Source: [Eubacterium] eligens ATCC 27750
Lineage (GTDB): Bacteria > Bacillota > Clostridia > Lachnospirales > Lachnospiraceae
DNA: 64,000 nt
Assembly: GCF_000146185.1 (NCBI RefSeq)
Contig: NC_012778.1
Location: 206,001 to 270,000 of the forward strand
Direction of reading: 5' to 3'
Shown here: positions 3,449 through 10,174 of the stretch, in pieces
How positions within the stretch are numbered: position 1 is the first letter of the stretch
Layout of the letters: every line of letters starts with the position of its first letter
Made by a program: the position numbers and the translations under genes
The notes under the pieces: model-generated
Told to the model about the DNA's origin: nothing
The model's database searches: none
What the model saw: only the letters and a program-made list of their open reading frames with translations

Positions 3449-3517
3449 GGAAGACAAACATGTTCATATAATGAACGAAAACCCCACGAGTTGGTGGCTC
3501 GTGGGGTTTTCTATGCC
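3449..3517 (+). ncRNA. Candidate type I antitoxin RNA
   Basis: A promoter TTGTAA-17 bp-TACAAT with an extended TG (3414-3442) would start an RNA near 3449 that stops at the hairpin 3478-3510. The predicted RNA is about 65 nt. It holds AAACATGTTCATATAAT (3455-3471), which repeats the strand opposite the toxin start codon (AAACATGTCCATATAAT, 3631-3647) with one change, and that change still allows a G-U pair. GTTCAT-ATA-ATGAAC forms a small hairpin that could present the seed. The layout matches RNA II of the enterococcal par (fst) locus. Expression is inferred. Confidence 0.5.
3478..3510. terminator. Shared bidirectional terminator of the toxin/antitoxin pair
   Basis: AAAACCCCACGAG pairs with CTCGTGGGGTTTT around a TTGGTGG loop, giving a 13-bp stem with A and T tracts on both sides. 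It can end both the rightward antitoxin RNA and the leftward toxin mRNA. Confidence 0.8.
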
Positions 3518-3549
3518 GTTGTGGAAGGGTGGCTTAGTCCCCAGGCTGG

Positions 3550-3642
3550 CTACCTGTGATTATCTCTATCCAGCCATTTGCAGATATAGTATGAAACTAT
3601 CTCAGCCATAATAGTGATAATTAGAGACATAAACATGTCCAT
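3550..3642 (-). CDS. Candidate type I toxin, small membrane peptide
   Basis: The 30-residue peptide starts at 3642 with AGGAGG eight bases upstream. It has an N-terminal hydrophobic helix (MSLIITIMAEIVSYYI) followed by a charged tail (CKWLDRDNHR), the usual shape of Fst/TxpA-like pore-forming toxins. The mRNA leader has CCCCTCCT upstream, which can pair with the ribosome site, a common feature of type I toxin messages. A convergent short RNA complementary to the start-codon region and a shared terminator support the assignment. I did not match it to a named family, so toxicity is inferred. Confidence 0.55.
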   Translation of the reverse strand: MDMFMSLIITIMAEIVSYYICKWLDRDNHR

Positions 3643-3690
3643 ATAATACGCCTCCTTTCTCTACCAGGTATAGGAGGGGTAGCACTAAAA

Positions 3691-3754: not shown

Positions 3755-3866
3755 ATTTATGATTTTATAACTAACATGTATTTTACAGGAATGACACATG
3801 GGGGTATGATACATTTATCAAGGGCAAAGGAGCCGGAAGTCTTTAGGGGATTCTGGCTCTTTTTTT
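3755..3866 (+). promoter_or_regulatory. Conserved leader RNA copy 1 with terminator
   Basis: A hairpin (ATTTAT/ATAACT) is followed by AACATGTATTTTACAGGAAT, then a spacer and GGCAAAGGAGCC, and ends in a terminator (stem GAGCCGGAA/TTCTGGCTC, T-run from 3860). The same elements with the same spacing occur at 7953-8069. It lies 33 bp upstream of the aminotransferase start. The bases match no riboswitch class I know. Premature termination control is the inferred role. Confidence 0.55.
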
Positions 3867-3898
3867 GCATTAGCAAGTATTTGAAGGAGGAAATATAT

Positions 3899-5089
3899 AT
3901 GGAATACGAGATTTCTAATCGTTTATCAGGTGTTCATGGTTCGATGATAAGAGAACTTTTTAAGTTAGGAGCAAGCAAGGATATTATATCTTTTGGCGGT
4001 GGCAATCCGTCAGCAGAGACATTCCCATGCAAGGAAATAGAAGAGATAGCAGCGAAGGGTCTTGGCGAGAATCCTGTTTCTTTATTACAGTATGGACTGA
4101 GTGAAGGTTATACACCTCTGCGTGATACTATGAAGAAATATCTTGAGAAGAAGGAAGGCTTTGATTTCGAGAATAATGAGCTTTTCATAGTGTCAGGCGG
4201 ACAGCAGTGTGCGGACCTTACAACTAAGGCACTTGTTAATGAAGGAGACGTTGTGCTTACTGAAGAGCCTGCATTTGTAGGCTGCCTTAATACATTCCGT
4301 TCTTACGGTGCAAAGCTTGTAGGAATCCCAATGGAGCAGGACGGAATGAATATAAATGCGCTTGAGGAGGCTTTAAAGGCTAATCCTGATGCAAAGCTTT
4401 TATACACAATTCCATCTTTTCAGAATCCTACAGGAATTACAACTTCTCTTGAGAAGAGAAAAAAAGTATATGAGCTTTGCTGCAAATATGATATCGCAAT
4501 ATTAGAGGACAATCCTTATGGTGAATTAAGATTTGCAGGTGAAAATGTGCCAACTATCAAGTCGATGGATACAGAGGGCAGGGTTATATATGCAGGAAGC
4601 TTCTCAAAGGTAATGGCACCTGCATTCCGTCTTGGTTTTCTTGTGTTTAACAAGTCGCTCACAGGACCGCTTACAGTTGCAAAACAGTGCACAGATGTAC
4701 ATTCAACTGTCCTTTTCCAGTACATTTGTAATGAATATATTAATAACTATGATTTCGACAAACATCTTGAGGATTCAAGAAAGGTGTATGAGCACAAATG
4801 TAATCTCATGATGGAGTGCATGAAGAAGGAATTCCATCCTTCAGTAACCTTCGGTCACCCTGAGGGCGGACTTTTCGTAATGGCATTCCTGCCAGAGGGA
4901 ATGGATTCTGCACCATTTGTAAGGGAGGCTATTAACAGAGGTGTTCTCTCAGTTCCGGGAGCAGCGTTCTTAGCAGATGAGAGCCAGAAGTCTAATGGAT
5001 TCAGACTTAATTATTCGACACCTTCTGATGAGCAGATTGTTAAGGGAATCGAAATTCTTGGAAAACTTACATATGAGTGGATTAAGTAG
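3899..5089 (+). CDS. PLP-dependent class I/II aminotransferase
   Basis: This 396-residue aminotransferase belongs to the 2-aminoadipate/aromatic aminotransferase group related to MocR C-terminal domains. Motifs in order are SFGGGNPS (31-38), FQNPTG (174-179), EDNPY (203-207) and SFSK with the cofactor lysine at 237. The start at 3899 follows AAGGAGG. The frame is open further upstream, but that part lies in the leader RNA and has no ribosome site. The next gene, a D-2-hydroxyacid dehydrogenase 15 bp away, suggests that amino acids are converted to 2-keto acids and then reduced. Substrate preference cannot be read from sequence; aromatic or branched amino acids are plausible. Confidence 0.88.
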   Translation: MEYEISNRLSGVHGSMIRELFKLGASKDIISFGGGNPSAETFPCKEIEEIAAKGLGENPVSLLQYGLSEGYTPLRDTMKKYLEKKEGFDFENNELFIVSGGQQCADLTTKALVNEGDVVLTEEPAFVGCLNTFRSYGAKLVGIPMEQDGMNINALEEALKANPDAKLLYTIPSFQNPTGITTSLEKRKKVYELCCKYDIAILEDNPYGELRFAGENVPTIKSMDTEGRVIYAGSFSKVMAPAFRLGFLVFNKSLTGPLTVAKQCTDVHSTVLFQYICNEYINNYDFDKHLEDSRKVYEHKCNLMMECMKKEFHPSVTFGHPEGGLFVMAFLPEGMDSAPFVREAINRGVLSVPGAAFLADESQKSNGFRLNYSTPSDEQIVKGIEILGKLTYEWIK

Positions 5090-5104
5090 GAGGAGTGAAA
5101 AGTT

Positions 5105-6091
5105 ATGAAGATAGCAGCATTCAGCGTTCGTCAAGATGAAAAACAGTATTTTGATACATTTGCAAATGTATACAAGGTGGAATTACAGATTAATAGGAGC
5201 GGATTTACAGCAGATGATATAGAAAGTGTCAAAGGCTGTGAGGCTATGTCGGTGTGCGATGGCATGTGTGACTTGTCAGCACCTGTTCTTGAAAAGCTTG
5301 CAGCAGAGGGTGTAAAGTACATCGGTTTCAGGACAATCGGATATAACAGTGTTGACCTTGAGGCAGCAAAGCGCCTTGGAATCCGTGTTGCACACAGCGG
5401 ATATTCGCCATATTCAGTTGCCAATTATACAGTAATGCTTATGCTTATGTGTATCCGCAAGGCTTTGTATGTAATGATGCGTTCACACACAGCAGATTAT
5501 TCACTTGGTCCTATATGTGGACGTGAAATGCAGAATATGACAGTAGGTATTATCGGAACAGGAAGAATTGGAAAGGCAGTAATTAAGAATCTTTCAGGAT
5601 TTGGATGTAAGATTATTGCGTATGACCCATATCCGGCAAAAGACCTTGAAAATGTTGAGTATGTAACTCTTGATGAATTGTATGCCAGAGCAGATATTAT
5701 CTCGCTTCATACTTTCTTAAGTGATGAGACATATCATATGATTAATAAGGATTCAATTGCAAAAATGAAGGATGGCGTTATCCTTATAAATGCGGCAAGA
5801 GGCGCGCTTGTTGATACAAAGGATCTGATTGAGGCTGTTGAGAGTGGCAAGATTGGTTCAGTTGGAACTGACTGCTGCGAGGGTGAGGATGAATTTATCC
5901 GTACAGACCGTAAGTATGATGACCTTGTTGTTAATCACGATTACATCATACTTAAGTCTTTTCAGAATACTATTGTCACACCTCATGTTGCATTTTTCAC
6001 AGATCAGGCTGTGTCTGACATGGTTGAGTCTTCAGTTAAGAGTGTTGTGCAGTTTGCAGCCGGTGAAGACACACCATTAGAGGTGCATTAA
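5105..6091 (+). CDS. D-isomer-specific 2-hydroxyacid dehydrogenase (D-lactate dehydrogenase-like)
   Basis: This 328-residue enzyme has the two-domain D-2-hydroxyacid dehydrogenase fold. The NAD-binding motif GIIGTGRIG is at residues 148-156, the catalytic Arg lies in NAARGALVD, the Glu in DCCEGED and the His in TPHVAFF. The DCCEGED stretch resembles the D-YEGE motif of D-lactate and D-hydroxyisocaproate dehydrogenases. It starts 15 bp after the aminotransferase with its own GGAGGAG, so the two are almost surely co-transcribed. The likely reaction is reduction of the 2-keto acid made by the aminotransferase to a D-2-hydroxy acid. Its last 4 bp overlap the convergent LysR gene. Confidence 0.88.
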   Translation: MKIAAFSVRQDEKQYFDTFANVYKVELQINRSGFTADDIESVKGCEAMSVCDGMCDLSAPVLEKLAAEGVKYIGFRTIGYNSVDLEAAKRLGIRVAHSGYSPYSVANYTVMLMLMCIRKALYVMMRSHTADYSLGPICGREMQNMTVGIIGTGRIGKAVIKNLSGFGCKIIAYDPYPAKDLENVEYVTLDELYARADIISLHTFLSDETYHMINKDSIAKMKDGVILINAARGALVDTKDLIEAVESGKIGSVGTDCCEGEDEFIRTDRKYDDLVVNHDYIILKSFQNTIVTPHVAFFTDQAVSDMVESSVKSVVQFAAGEDTPLEVH

Positions 6092-6945
6092 TTATTCAAA
6101 TTTTTGAAATATTCTTCAAGCTGGTGCTCGAAGATTCGCTGATTTTCTGAGCAGAATGAGCCAAGCGGCTGATAATAAATGCTTCTGAAATGTGGACAGT
6201 CATCTATATGCAGCAGGCTTATGTTTTCAGGAAGGCTGCTGCTTGTCCATGTTACAGAGGCAACAAATGATACTCCAAGACCGAGACTTATGAGTTTGCC
6301 CTGTAATATGTAATCATTGCATGAGTAGGCTATCTGAGGAGTTTTCTTACATTTACTGAATATTGAATTGAACACTCCGGCATAAGATGGAGTATCTGCA
6401 AGGTCAATGAATTTCTCATTCATCATCTGTTCTACTGATATGTGTCCGGTATGGGCAAGTGGATGTGATGATGAAACGGCAAGGCAGATTTCTTCTGTCA
6501 TAAGAAGATGTGCATTGTCTGGAATATCATAAGCTGATGAGACAGAGTCAATCAGCAGGTCACACCCTTTTGGTTCAGAAGATATTGAAAAGCTGACATG
6601 AGGGTGCTCATGGATAAAATCTTTAAGTACATTGCTGACAAGAACTGCACTTGAGCGGAGACAGAGCCTTATGTCGCCTGCATCGCCAAGACTTTCACTG
6701 ACAGCACGCGTAGCATCTTCTGAAAGAGCCAGTATTCTGTCTGCATATTCAAGCAGAATTTCTCCCTGACGGGTACATTCGAGCCCTTTTTTATTACGGA
6801 TAAAAAGCTGTGCGCCAAATTCTTCTTCAAGCTTATGGATTGTCTTGCTTAATGCCGGCTGTGCTATGCACAGTTCACTGGCAGCACGGGTCATATTCTT
6901 GTGTCTGGCGGCAGCCTGAAACTGCCTGAGCTGATATAATTCCAT
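6088..6945 (-). CDS. LysR family transcriptional regulator
   Basis: This 285-residue protein has the N-terminal LysR helix-turn-helix (MELYQLRQFQAAARHKNMT, then RAASELCIAQPALSKTIHKL). The C-terminal periplasmic-binding-like effector domain (about residues 90-280) is complete. The gene is convergent with the hydroxyacid dehydrogenase and divergent from the AEC carrier, 76 bp away. That is the usual LysR arrangement, so the carrier gene and perhaps the metabolic operon are its likely targets. The effector is unknown. Confidence 0.9.
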   Translation of the reverse strand: MELYQLRQFQAAARHKNMTRAASELCIAQPALSKTIHKLEEEFGAQLFIRNKKGLECTRQGEILLEYADRILALSEDATRAVSESLGDAGDIRLCLRSSAVLVSNVLKDFIHEHPHVSFSISSEPKGCDLLIDSVSSAYDIPDNAHLLMTEEICLAVSSSHPLAHTGHISVEQMMNEKFIDLADTPSYAGVFNSIFSKCKKTPQIAYSCNDYILQGKLISLGLGVSFVASVTWTSSSLPENISLLHIDDCPHFRSIYYQPLGSFCSENQRIFEHQLEEYFKNLNN

Positions 6946-7021
6946 GTTCGCACCTCTCTTGTATGTAGTATTTTATAAAAATTACAATTAACATAATATA
7001 GAAATCAGGATATTTACGATT

Positions 7022-7936
7022 ATGATAACACAAATATTATTAACGCAGACATTTATAATGTTTATTCTTATGATTCTGGGACTGATTCTGTCTAAAACAG
7101 GTCTGCTTACAGAACATGGCAGTAAGGATATGGCCAATATTCTGCTGTATGCGGTTATTCCGTGTGTAATTATAAGAAGCTATATAACAGATTTCACGAT
7201 GGAGAAGCTGTATGGACTTCTTATGTCGGCGGTACTGGCTGTAGCTGCATTTGCAGTGGCGATAGCTGTATCATATATAATATACGGCATGCGAAAGCCA
7301 ATAGACAACTTTGGAACGGCTTTCTGTAACGCAGGATTTATCGGAATTCCACTTGTAACTGCGGTATTTGGAAATGAAGCGGCATTCTATGTTGCATCAT
7401 TTGCAAGTATTCTTAATCTGTTGCAGTGGACATATGGAATTGTGATAATAACCCGCCGCAAGGATATGATAAATATAAAAAAGGTATTCGTCAATCCTGT
7501 GACAATATCACTTGTTATAGGACTGTTTCTTTTTATTACGGGAATTAAACTGCCAGGTGTAATAAACAGCACGATGGCTGGAGTTGCGGCACTTAATACA
7601 CCTGCAGCCATGATAGTACTGGGATATTATCTGTCATGTGTCAGGATCCGTGACTTACTGCTTAATCCGTCCCTGTATCTGGCATCGTTTGTCAGGCTTA
7701 TAATAATTCCGCTGCTTACACTGCTTGTGCTTTATATTATACCGGCGGGACACGGTCAGATTGGAATGATTACACTGATTGCTGCGGCAACACCGGTTGG
7801 AACGAGTACGGCAATATTTGCACAGAAATTCGGGCAGGATTATGAGCGGGCAGTATGTATGGTCTGCCTGTCAACGCTGTTTTCAATTATTACAATGCCA
7901 GTTGTGATGTATCTGGCACAGATGTGGATTATGTAG
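7022..7936 (+). CDS. AEC family transporter (auxin efflux carrier-like permease)
   Basis: This 304-residue integral membrane protein has about ten hydrophobic segments in two halves, the AEC/BART fold. Features include the N-terminal FIMFILMILGLILSK helix, GFIGIPLV in the middle and ATPVGTSTAIFAQKFG near the end. AEC carriers commonly move organic acids such as malate or hydroxy acids. Its place between a LysR gene and a second copy of the leader RNA, close to an aminotransferase and a hydroxyacid dehydrogenase, suggests export of the resulting hydroxy acid. That role is inference. Confidence 0.85.
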   Translation: MITQILLTQTFIMFILMILGLILSKTGLLTEHGSKDMANILLYAVIPCVIIRSYITDFTMEKLYGLLMSAVLAVAAFAVAIAVSYIIYGMRKPIDNFGTAFCNAGFIGIPLVTAVFGNEAAFYVASFASILNLLQWTYGIVIITRRKDMINIKKVFVNPVTISLVIGLFLFITGIKLPGVINSTMAGVAALNTPAAMIVLGYYLSCVRIRDLLLNPSLYLASFVRLIIIPLLTLLVLYIIPAGHGQIGMITLIAAATPVGTSTAIFAQKFGQDYERAVCMVCLSTLFSIITMPVVMYLAQMWIM

Positions 7937-7952
7937 TTTAACTATTATTTCT

Positions 7953-8069
7953 GGTTATGGTTTTATAACCAACATGTATTTTACAGGAATAACACAATGG
8001 TATATTATACAGACATCAAAGGCAAAGGAGCCATGACCCGGAAGGGGTAATGGTTTCTTTGCCTTTTTT
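7953..8069 (+). promoter_or_regulatory. Conserved leader RNA copy 2 with terminator
   Basis: The hairpin GGTTAT/ATAACC (7953-7970) is followed by AACATGTATTTTACAGGAAT (7971-7990) and GGCAAAGGAGCC (8021-8032). From AACATG to GAGCC it has the same length as copy 1. The terminator has a 14-bp stem (GGCAAAGGAGCCAT with ATGGTTTCTTTGCC) and a T-run at 8063-8068. Base pairs of the first hairpin differ between copies in a partly compensatory way (outer G-C here, A-U in copy 1). It precedes the SNF symporter gene. Confidence 0.6.
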
Positions 8070-8146: not shown

Positions 8147-9493
8147 ATGGGAAATAACGGAATTGAATTGGAAAGAGATGGCTTTAAGAGCCGTACAGGT
8201 TTTATTCTTGCCTGTATCGGTTCGGCAGTAGGAATGGGAAATATATGGCGTTTTCCATATATGGTATCTGCATGGGGTGGTATGACATTTTTAATACCTT
8301 ATGTATTATTTGTAATATTGATAGGTTCAACAGGTGTTATCGAGGAGATGGCACTTGGCCGTGCGACTAAGGGCGGACCTATTAAAGCATTTGGCGACTG
8401 TATGCAGATGCGTACAGGAAAGAGAAAAGCAGGTGAGGCAATTGGTTTTATTCCTGTGCTTGGCTCACTGGCTCTGGCAATGGGCTATACTGTAGTTGTT
8501 GGCTGGATATTCAAATATACTTATCTTGCATTTTCTGGAAAGCTTTCAGCAATGGGCAATGATATGTCAGCTATTGGTGGTATGTTTGGAAGTACAGCAA
8601 GCACATTTGGAAATAATATGTGGCTTATAATCGCAATGGTTGTAACTGCTGTTATTATGGCACTTGGTATTGCAGGCGGAATTGAGAAAGCAAACAAGGT
8701 CATGATGCCTTTGCTTTTCATCATGTTTGTAGGTCTTGGAATATACATTTTCACACTTCCAGGTTCAAGTGCAGGTTATAAATACATATTTACACTTAAC
8801 CCTAAGGAACTTCTTGATATAAAGCTCTGGATATATGCATTTGGTCAGGCGTTCTTCTCACTGTCTATCGCAGGTAACGGAACTGTTATCTATGGTTCAT
8901 ATCTTAGTGATAAGGAAAATATTGTTTCTTCTGCAAGAAATGTTGCAGTATTTGATACTATTGCTGCTTTATTAGCTGCATTTGTTATTATTCCTGGTAT
9001 GGCAGCAGGCGGTGCCGAGTTATCATCAGGTGGTCCCGGACTGATGTTTATCTATCTTGTAAATGTATTTAATGGTATGCCGGGTGGCAAGATTGTAGGA
9101 ATTGTATTCTATGTATGTGTTCTGTTTGCAGGTATGAGCTCACTTGTTAATCTGTATGAAGCTCCGGTTGCAACTATTCAGGAGAAGCTTAAGCTTAACC
9201 GTGTTGCATCTGTTGGAATTATCGCAGTGGCTGGCTGTGTTGTGTCACTTGTAATACAGGGTATTGTATCAGGCTGGATGGACGCAGTATCTATCTATAT
9301 CTGCCCACTTGGCGCAATGCTCGCAGCAATTATGTTCTTCTGGGTTGAAGGAAAGAAGTTTGCTGTTGATGCTGTTAATGCAGGTGCAGATAAGCCTATT
9401 GGAAAGTGGTTTGTACCACTTGGCAAATATGTCCTTGTTCCACTTGCACTTGTTGCACTTATTGCAGGTGCTTTACTTGGTGGAATTGGCTGA
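8147..9493 (+). CDS. SNF family sodium-dependent amino acid symporter
   Basis: This 448-residue, 11- to 12-helix protein carries the neurotransmitter:sodium symporter signature GSAVGMGNIWRFPYM in TM1 (about residues 25-39). TM6 contains SLSIAGNGTVIYGSY. Bacterial relatives such as LeuT, TnaT and MhsT take up hydrophobic or aromatic amino acids with sodium. ATG 8147 is preferred because AAGGA lies nine bases upstream; the ATG at 8123 has no ribosome site. The leader RNA shared with the aminotransferase operon suggests both respond to one signal, probably the transported amino acid or a product. Confidence 0.88.
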   Translation: MGNNGIELERDGFKSRTGFILACIGSAVGMGNIWRFPYMVSAWGGMTFLIPYVLFVILIGSTGVIEEMALGRATKGGPIKAFGDCMQMRTGKRKAGEAIGFIPVLGSLALAMGYTVVVGWIFKYTYLAFSGKLSAMGNDMSAIGGMFGSTASTFGNNMWLIIAMVVTAVIMALGIAGGIEKANKVMMPLLFIMFVGLGIYIFTLPGSSAGYKYIFTLNPKELLDIKLWIYAFGQAFFSLSIAGNGTVIYGSYLSDKENIVSSARNVAVFDTIAALLAAFVIIPGMAAGGAELSSGGPGLMFIYLVNVFNGMPGGKIVGIVFYVCVLFAGMSSLVNLYEAPVATIQEKLKLNRVASVGIIAVAGCVVSLVIQGIVSGWMDAVSIYICPLGAMLAAIMFFWVEGKKFAVDAVNAGADKPIGKWFVPLGKYVLVPLALVALIAGALLGGIG

Positions 9494-9560: not shown

Positions 9561-10174
9561 GAGCGGGAGCGTGGCGGAATTGACCTTGAGGCGGAGGGGA
9601 GGCACGCGGAAGTCCAAAAGGAGTGAGAAAGAGTGGAGGATTGGACTTTGAAGCGGAGGAGAGGCAGGAGGAAGTCCAAAAGGAGTGAGAAAGAGCGGAG
9701 GATTGGACTTTGAAGTGGAGAGGCAGGAGGAAGTCCAAAAGGAGCGAGAAATAGCGGCGGATTGGACCTTGAGGCAGAGGAGAGGCACGAGGAAGTCCAA
9801 AAAGAGCGAGAAAGAGCTGAGGATTGGACCTTGAGGCAGAGGAGAGGCAGGAGAAAGTCCAAAAAGAGCGAGAAGGAGAGGAGGATTGGACCTTGAAGCG
9901 GAGGAGAGGCACGAGGAAGTCCAAAAGGAGCGAGAAAGGGCTGTGGATTGGACTTTGAGGCGGAGGGGAGGCACGAGGAAGTCCAAAAGGAGCGAGAAAT
10001 AGCGGAGGATTAGACCTTGAGGCAGAGGAGAGGCAGGAGGAAGTCCAAAAGGAGCGAGAAATAGCGGAGGATTGGACCTTGAGGCAGAGGGGAGGCAGGA
10101 GAAAGTCCAAAAGGGGTGAGAAATAGCGGAGGATTGGACCTTGAAGCGGAGGGGAGGCACGCGGAAGTCCAAAA
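9561..10174. repeat. 62-bp purine-rich minisatellite, about 10 copies
   Basis: About ten tandem units are visible. TTGGACC/TT starts at about 9580, 9641, 9703, 9762, 9824, 9886, 9948, 10010, 10072 and 10134, a period of 62 bp with single units of 61 and 59. Each unit contains TTGGACTT and AAGTCCAA, which can pair around a G/A-rich loop, then a linker such as AAAGGAGCGAGAAATAGCGG. The plus strand is strongly purine-biased. All three minus-strand frames are open over long stretches only because the unit lacks stop codons there. A 62-bp period would shift the frame each unit, so this is not a protein-coding repeat. Confidence 0.9.

Follow-up and report, generated by a model that had tools for sequence, protein, structure and literature searches.

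The closest described relatives of the RNA element considered here are the leader targets of the ANTAR-domain antiterminators EutV, NasR, and AmiR. In clostridia, a GlnR-like antiterminator is encoded beside glnA, and a 13-nucleotide eut motif exists. The excerpts consulted of one survey describe the ANTAR signature as a hexaloop whose first base is A and whose fourth is G (A1/G4), on a short stem that overlaps a terminator, and place the dual-hairpin targets mainly before nitrogen genes (PMC3369931). The EutV structure paper, as far as its excerpts go, redefines the smallest site that ANTAR binds as a single hexaloop, holds both hairpins to be required for eut antitermination, and defers the question of what single-hexaloop sites do to later bioinformatic and experimental studies (PMC8934654). 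Dual-hairpin nitrogen regulons were found in the open-licence literature, with no report there of a single-hairpin ANTAR regulon in Lachnospiraceae. Here we use sequence computation to analyze two related stretches, at 3755-3867 and 7953-8069, within 64,000 nucleotides of [Eubacterium] eligens ATCC 27750 (contig NC_012778.1, positions 206,001 to 270,000; hereafter the window). The first (copy 1) precedes genes for an aminotransferase and a D-2-hydroxyacid dehydrogenase, the second (copy 2) a gene for an SNF (neurotransmitter:sodium) symporter, and genes for a LysR-type regulator and an AEC transporter lie in between.

Comparison with related loci suggests that each copy combines LysR-type promoter control with ANTAR-type attenuation through a single hexaloop, a reading we consider reasonably probable. 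Both copies resemble the EutV, NasR, and AmiR targets in having an A1/G4 hexaloop on a short stem that overlaps the 5' arm of a terminator; nitrogen genes lie downstream of their relatives, and the genome encodes an ANTAR protein. They differ from those targets in having a single hairpin, which lies very close to the predicted transcript 5' end, and in also carrying a LysR-type operator, and the ANTAR protein here has an altered receiver and several altered RNA contacts. Because both hairpins are held necessary and one is present, the leaders are a variant rather than members by the published dual-hairpin definition.

The relationship of the two stretches was checked by sequence and alignment, and GGCAAAGGAGCC is common to both. 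At up to three mismatches, the 2.83-Mb genome contains a 36-nucleotide block, TTTTATAACYAACATGTATTTTACAGGAATRACACA, exactly twice, compared to no match for the reversed control pattern, which confirms the original prediction that an amino-acid catabolic operon and an SNF symporter gene are each preceded by a copy of the same regulatory element. The terminator parts alone fold strongly (z -3.24 for copy 1 and -7.14 for copy 2), with GGAGCC inside each 5' arm, as had also been proposed, and the upstream 66 nucleotides of each copy fold no better than shuffled sequences (z -0.59 and -0.25). In an Rfam search of both leaders no family reached its gathering score, in agreement with the earlier view that they are unlike known amino-acid riboswitches and T-boxes; the best match below threshold was a plastid 3' untranslated region family (E 0.008, 24.5 bits versus 65.6 required). 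Riboswitches, T-boxes, and other Rfam families were rejected, none being convincing below the gathering score either. With glutamine, glycine, and lysine riboswitches and with T-boxes the copies share leader terminators before amino-acid genes, but they have no Rfam match and no room for an aptamer. A plasmid collection searched with copy 1 gave no match. A long-block search of 299 family genomes returned two extra places that were not accepted on reading, one (L003) within a protein-coding stretch and the other (L005) having neither GCAAAGG nor a terminator. A leader peptide was likewise rejected, the short open reading frame not being conserved among the leaders by reading: copy 2 and the SNF leader L023 have ATG, four codons, and a stop, the SNF leader L014 has no stop there, and copy 1 has no ATG.

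The first 62 bases of each copy (3755-3816 and 7953-8014) are a predicted DNA control region consisting of a dyad, GGTTAT-N6-ATAACC, and a sigma-70 promoter. A promoter scan found TTTACA-17-TATGAT (3782-3810) and TTTACA-17-TATTAT (7980-8008), each matching at 10/12 positions. Since the same 5-kb stretch holds 30 promoter-like sites, compared to 15.9 expected, the scan match alone is weak, and the question was settled by comparison. Upstream regions, each cut to 62 bases from the dyad, were taken from Lachnospira, three related records of metagenome-assembled genomes, and five Agathobaculum records, giving 16 regions (15 distinct); the SNF region of L017, identical to that of L016, was omitted from alignments A2 and A3. 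All 62 columns align with zero gaps. TTAT, AT, TATT..ACA, and TA...T are invariant, and the 17-nucleotide spacer is variable in sequence. The T-N11-A motif within the dyad is preserved (T in column 3 of 16/16 regions and A in column 15 of 15/16, alignment A2) at a fixed distance to the promoter; in the L016 SNF region, by reading, a better -10 hexamer is located two bases nearer. A strict layout pattern derived from these regions matches the module loci and none of 70 aminotransferase loci without the module (L024-L093, 45-53% identity) or of 20 other stretches of the same genome (L115-L134). With a looser dyad and promoter pattern the genome gives eight matches versus six for the reversed control, of which only the two copies are credible.

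A symmetric core at a fixed promoter distance is what a DNA-binding dimer would need. An RNA hairpin at the dyad was rejected: it pairs in 77.8% of cells compared to 80.4% when shuffled, its outer two pairs are broken in 10/15 and 9/15 rows, and the 16 regions show no covariation, contrary to the claim that the first hairpin keeps pairing while its bases change. Most of the conserved block once taken for leader RNA (the dyad, AACATGTATTTTACAGGAAT, and their equal spacing) lies upstream of the predicted start site and therefore appears to be operator and promoter DNA instead.

The dyad is probably bound by the neighbouring LysR-type protein. As in LysR-type operator-promoters, an upstream dyad with T-N11-A stands at fixed promoter spacing and a LysR gene is part of the same cluster; unlike in these, the predicted dyad centre lies about 54 bp upstream of the predicted start (approximately -54), and the regulator gene is located between two target units rather than divergent from one. 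A LysR gene accompanies the aminotransferase-dehydrogenase pair in nine of ten named operator-bearing loci, the tenth record stopping 333 bases past the dehydrogenase gene. Among 22 genomes of the genus, four have the block (at up to three mismatches) and four have the LysR gene, three genomes having both. Across 392 genomes of the order, with up to six candidates scored per genome, LysR homologues at E 1e-55 or better were found only in G000 and in G043. In G043 the SNF, aminotransferase, dehydrogenase, and LysR genes are found together, and reading upstream of its SNF gene shows a promoter, a dyad that has diverged, and a terminator with GGC-AAAGGC-GCC. The LysR homologue is reported with an internal stop in G304 (on the same contig as L014) and in G315; some strains may therefore have lost the regulator and kept the promoters.

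Transcription probably begins near 3817 and 8015, with AUCAARGGCAAAGGAGCC as the first bases, and the transcript would therefore run into the terminator within a few bases. In 12 of the 13 aligned terminator-bearing leaders, the -10 hexamer is followed by six bases, ATC, and, 1 to 4 bases further, GCAAAGG; the exception is the SNF leader of L016, with AAC and GCAACGG. Both copies have a GGC/GCC stem of at least 3 bp that overlaps the 5' arm of the terminator and closes the loop AAAGGA, which has A1 and G4, as does AACGGG in the L016 SNF hairpin (GGC-AACGGG-GCC). The Agathobaculum hairpins read AGC-AAAGGC-GCU or AGC-AAAGGU-GCU, with up to five pairs counting G-U. A second upstream hairpin (P1) with a short linker was found upstream of neither copy and, among the matches listed, at one of 35 terminator loci; an ANTAR dual hairpin was rejected for the two copies on the missing P1. 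A promoter matching at 9/12 or more positions (6.9 in shuffles) is present in 30 of 43 leaders, and the hairpin begins a median of 8 nucleotides past its predicted start. In 19 of these 30 the distance is at most 12 nucleotides, which is too short for P1 plus linker.

Early tests suggested that the mini-hairpin was not general. In 447.5 kb of sequence from the same genome no mini-hairpin was found beyond the two copies, and of the 75 AAAGG terminators in 1.34 Mb of sequence, 12 showed complementary arms, ten of these belonging to this gene module. A search of the genome for GCAAAGGNGC followed by a U-tract returned the two copies, one match in a coding frame, and three further terminators, which by reading precede SDR, serine-dehydratase-like, and aminotransferase-like genes, named from sequence. 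Whole-genome searches of the family changed the early view. Hairpin patterns followed by a U-tract were sought in the same 150 Lachnospiraceae genomes: GAC-AAAGGN-GTC occurs in 57, GGC-AAAGGN-GCC in 37, and the one-mismatch control GAC-AAAGGN-GCC in 16. Compared to reversed patterns, with matches summed by hand and overlapping rows counted, the totals are 108 versus 46, 58 versus 22, and 19 versus 19, respectively, and terminator-like strings make up 47 of 73, 23 of 41, and 4 of 16.

Loci were retrieved for 30 places each of the GGC/GCC (41 distinct strings) and GAC/GTC (73) patterns. Among the matches listed, 35 loci were classed as terminators, comprising 30 with complementary arms and five mismatch-arm matches at three places. 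Nitrogen or amino-acid genes lie downstream of 23 of the former, again among the matches listed: glutamate dehydrogenase (five), ammonium transporter (four), asparagine synthase (three), CTP synthase, class-II glutamine amidotransferase of the glutamate-synthase type, and urease gamma (two each), and glutamine synthetase III, carbamoyl-phosphate synthase small chain, alanine symporter, amino-acid permease, and class-III aminotransferase (one each). The other seven precede DHFR, PPDK_N, and RelA/TPR genes, an amidohydrolase fragment, and, in three cases, no convincing gene. Two loci, L142 and L195, were not found again by the classifying script, the first of which folds as a terminator before an aminotransferase gene. 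The script also set aside the aminotransferase leader of the window itself (L156) and L175, both crossed by a long open frame, and the weakly folding L168 and L173; the genes that follow L168, L173, and L175 encode CTP synthase, a DUF1989 protein, and an ammonium transporter. Taken together, the mini-hairpin looks like a class of single-hexaloop attenuators on Lachnospiraceae nitrogen genes. At one further locus (L164, in G039), upstream of a glutamate-synthase-type gene, tandem mini-hairpin terminators can be read, GGCAAAGGCGTC... followed by GGCAAAGGCGCC....

ANTAR proteins are encoded in 131 of the 150 genomes, nearly always one per genome; the single one in E. eligens is encoded immediately after glnA. 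Regions upstream of the ANTAR gene were collected from 40 genomes without regard to the motif, and 38 contain glnA. The hairpin is present in 16 of these 38 glnA leaders by eye, with G-U allowed, and in only 8 of 38 by a strict automatic count; in some of the remaining leaders, on inspection, glnA is not first in its operon. All 16 by-eye hairpins have G4 and 14 have A1. In a test on 18 rows, anchored only on the closing pair and the loop and with false rows kept, the outer pairs number 54 versus 41.7 in shuffles, none of 2000 reaching as high. The 16 by-eye stems pair in 96.7% of cells versus 89.1% when shuffled, with nine double changes versus 2.9, a test that leans towards structure because its rows were picked by eye after pairing had been seen (13 are from the 18-row test, three were added, and five rows of that test were dropped). 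Covariation, which is missing from the 5' hairpin of the original prediction, is thus found in relatives of the GGCAAAGGAGCC element, and the interpretation first given is, overall, partly supported.

Terminator-like matches occur in 53 of 131 ANTAR-positive and 2 of 19 ANTAR-negative genomes (Fisher p 0.008, with relatedness ignored), and both of the latter genomes are incomplete. In an alignment of the local ANTAR protein with 29 others, placed by reading and numbered as in the consulted excerpts of the EutV study (PMC8934654), the equivalents of E160 and M172 are invariant in 30/30, His (24) or Phe (6) stands in place of Y164, and R175 and R177 are missing from most.

A simple model would place two controls on one pathway. 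At the DNA level, a sigma-70 promoter with an upstream dyad would be bound by the LysR-type protein whose gene lies between the units, with an amino acid or the corresponding keto acid as its probable effector. At the RNA level, the transcript would fold at once into the intrinsic terminator unless an antiterminator protein, most likely the single ANTAR protein encoded beside glnA, held its first bases as the mini-hairpin GGC-AAAGGA-GCC. Substrate (through LysR) would then switch on, and nitrogen status (through ANTAR) would gate, the uptake of amino acids, their transamination, and their reduction to hydroxy acids. The sequences show the architecture, its conservation, covarying stems in relatives, and the gene associations; from these we infer the start sites and binding by both proteins, and we take the direction of the nitrogen signal (read-through when nitrogen is low) from known systems. 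More generally, we slightly favor the view that Lachnospiraceae possess a nitrogen regulon acting through a single hexaloop within a few bases of the transcript 5' end, without a recruitment hairpin, its reader being the ANTAR protein linked to glnA, whose receiver is degenerate, and that Lachnospira extended it to a pathway from amino acids to hydroxy acids that also has a LysR-type switch. If true, ANTAR antitermination would proceed without the recruitment hairpin held necessary for EutV. The leaders, with good promoters, a hairpin at the 5' end, and one terminator, are natural test cases for single-hexaloop sites. A further prediction from them is that nitrogen controls the genes for glutamate dehydrogenase, ammonium transport, asparagine synthase, and CTP synthase in various gut Lachnospiraceae and, in Lachnospira, gates a pathway that likely produces hydroxy acids.

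Several observations weigh against this model. Known ANTAR targets require two hairpins for antitermination, according to the excerpts of both published studies (PMC3369931, PMC8934654), and one was found here. The local ANTAR protein lacks the equivalents of EutV R142, K147, R175, and R177, and its receiver lacks the Asp; most of the 30 aligned ANTAR proteins read CGYK or similar at the position of the phosphorylated Asp in EutV, so the signal may not be phosphorylation. The strict count of glnA hairpins gave 8 of 38, two of the 16 by-eye hairpins have G rather than A at loop position 1, and the glnA gene of the species itself has no such terminator leader. To these are added the 447.5-kb null result, the aminotransferase leaders L015-L017, which keep operator and promoter and show no terminator, and L197, one of the three places with a mismatch-arm terminator, which by reading also precedes a symporter gene. 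On the DNA side, G313 has the block without the LysR gene (in a contig of 7.3 kb that stops about 2.1 kb further downstream), G315 has the LysR gene and a diverged operator without the block, and no dyad of this kind was seen at the LysR gene itself in the LysR-AEC interval examined. That last absence, together with the even length of the site (18 bp), would suit a dyad read by some other regulator, to which we give a small chance given that LysR accompanies the module in Lachnospira, Agathobaculum, and G043.

The same RNA features could arise if LysR-controlled promoters were followed by constitutive, unregulated early terminators, the mini-hairpin being a by-product of terminator 5' arms (AAAGG..CCUUU) that no protein reads. 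AAAGG pairs with CCUUU or the U-tract in ordinary terminators, and both the three terminator-less aminotransferase leaders and the restriction to two copies in 447.5 kb are consistent with this. The excess of genomes with complementary arms over those with the one-mismatch arm (57 and 37 versus 16), the covarying glnA-leader stems, and the 23 of 30 listed matches before nitrogen or amino-acid genes argue otherwise and make it unlikely. A regulated attenuator read by something other than an ANTAR protein, either another RNA-binding protein or the 30S subunit via the Shine-Dalgarno-like AAAGGNG, would explain why the second hairpin of known targets is absent and why several of the EutV RNA contacts are gone from the local ANTAR protein. 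We regard it as quite unlikely, since the A1/G4 hexaloop fits the ANTAR signature as given in the excerpts of PMC3369931, hairpin leaders precede glnA and the ANTAR gene, and ANTAR proteins co-occur with the terminators (p 0.008). Finally, a riboswitch for amino, keto, or hydroxy acids, as originally proposed, would accord with linked genes that take up and convert amino acids and with two copies of matching sequence, yet it is highly improbable: the predicted transcript begins at the terminator, the remaining RNA of about 50 nucleotides is nearly all terminator and so has no room for an aptamer, the 5' hairpin does not covary, and the same RNA element precedes gdhA, amt, pyrG, and urease genes. 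An RNA sensing amino or keto acids is thus not supported. The features on which the preferred reading of LysR-type control with single-hexaloop attenuation is based are listed in the table.

Table. Predicted regulatory features and genes of the two units (window positions).
Feature	Position	Strand	Basis
Operator dyad, copy 1 (ATTTAT-GATTTT-ATAACT), probable LysR-type site	3755..3772	+	gap-free with 15 other regions; TTAT, AT invariant
-35 hexamer TTTACA, copy 1	3782..3787	+	10/12 sigma-70 match, 17-nt spacer; ACA invariant in 16 regions
-10 hexamer TATGAT, copy 1, predicted start ~3817	3805..3810	+	promoter scan; same spacing in alignment; 6 nt then ATC
Mini-hairpin GGC-AAAGGA-GCC, copy 1, candidate ANTAR hexaloop	3823..3834	+	pattern; covariation in relatives
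Intrinsic terminator, copy 1, mutually exclusive with mini-hairpin	3826..3863	+	fold -19.0 kcal/mol, z -3.24
Aminotransferase class I/II (multi-substrate, KAT II/aromatic-like)	3899..5089	+	Pfam PF00155; PDB relatives
D-2-hydroxyacid dehydrogenase (D-LDH/HicDH/VanH type)	5105..6091	+	Pfam and structural relatives
LysR-type regulator, candidate reader of dyad	6088..6945	-	PF00126/PF03466; occurs with operator module
AEC/Mem_trans family transporter	7022..7936	+	Pfam
Operator dyad, copy 2 (GGTTAT-GGTTTT-ATAACC)	7953..7970	+	alignment
-35 hexamer TTTACA, copy 2	7980..7985	+	promoter scan; alignment
-10 hexamer TATTAT, copy 2, predicted start ~8015	8003..8008	+	promoter scan; alignment
Mini-hairpin GGC-AAAGGA-GCC, copy 2	8021..8032	+	pattern
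Intrinsic terminator, copy 2	8018..8066	+	fold -32.7 kcal/mol, z -7.14
SNF (neurotransmitter:sodium) symporter	8147..9493	+	Pfam; closest solved relative 4us3

The closest solved relatives of the aminotransferase are KAT II and aromatic-type aminotransferases, and its nearest named record is from Eubacterium sp. AF22-9 (100%). Those of the dehydrogenase are D-lactate and D-hydroxyisocaproate dehydrogenases, and the solved relative of the symporter, 4us3, we take to be MhsT. Upstream of distant aminotransferase relatives of the same family (L024 and L027), T-box-like GGGTGGCACCGC sequences can be read, so other lineages may use a T-box there. On the 3' side of the SNF gene, at 9582-10174, about 9.6 copies of a 62-bp unit form an array (88% matches). 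An Rfam match to SpF66_sRNA at 3466-3683 on the minus strand, barely above threshold (42.3 versus 42), spans a 30-residue open reading frame at 3550-3642 on the same strand whose product, MDMFMSLIITIMAEIVSYYICKWLDRDNHR, resembles a small membrane peptide; by reading, an element like this match lies upstream of both units in L014.

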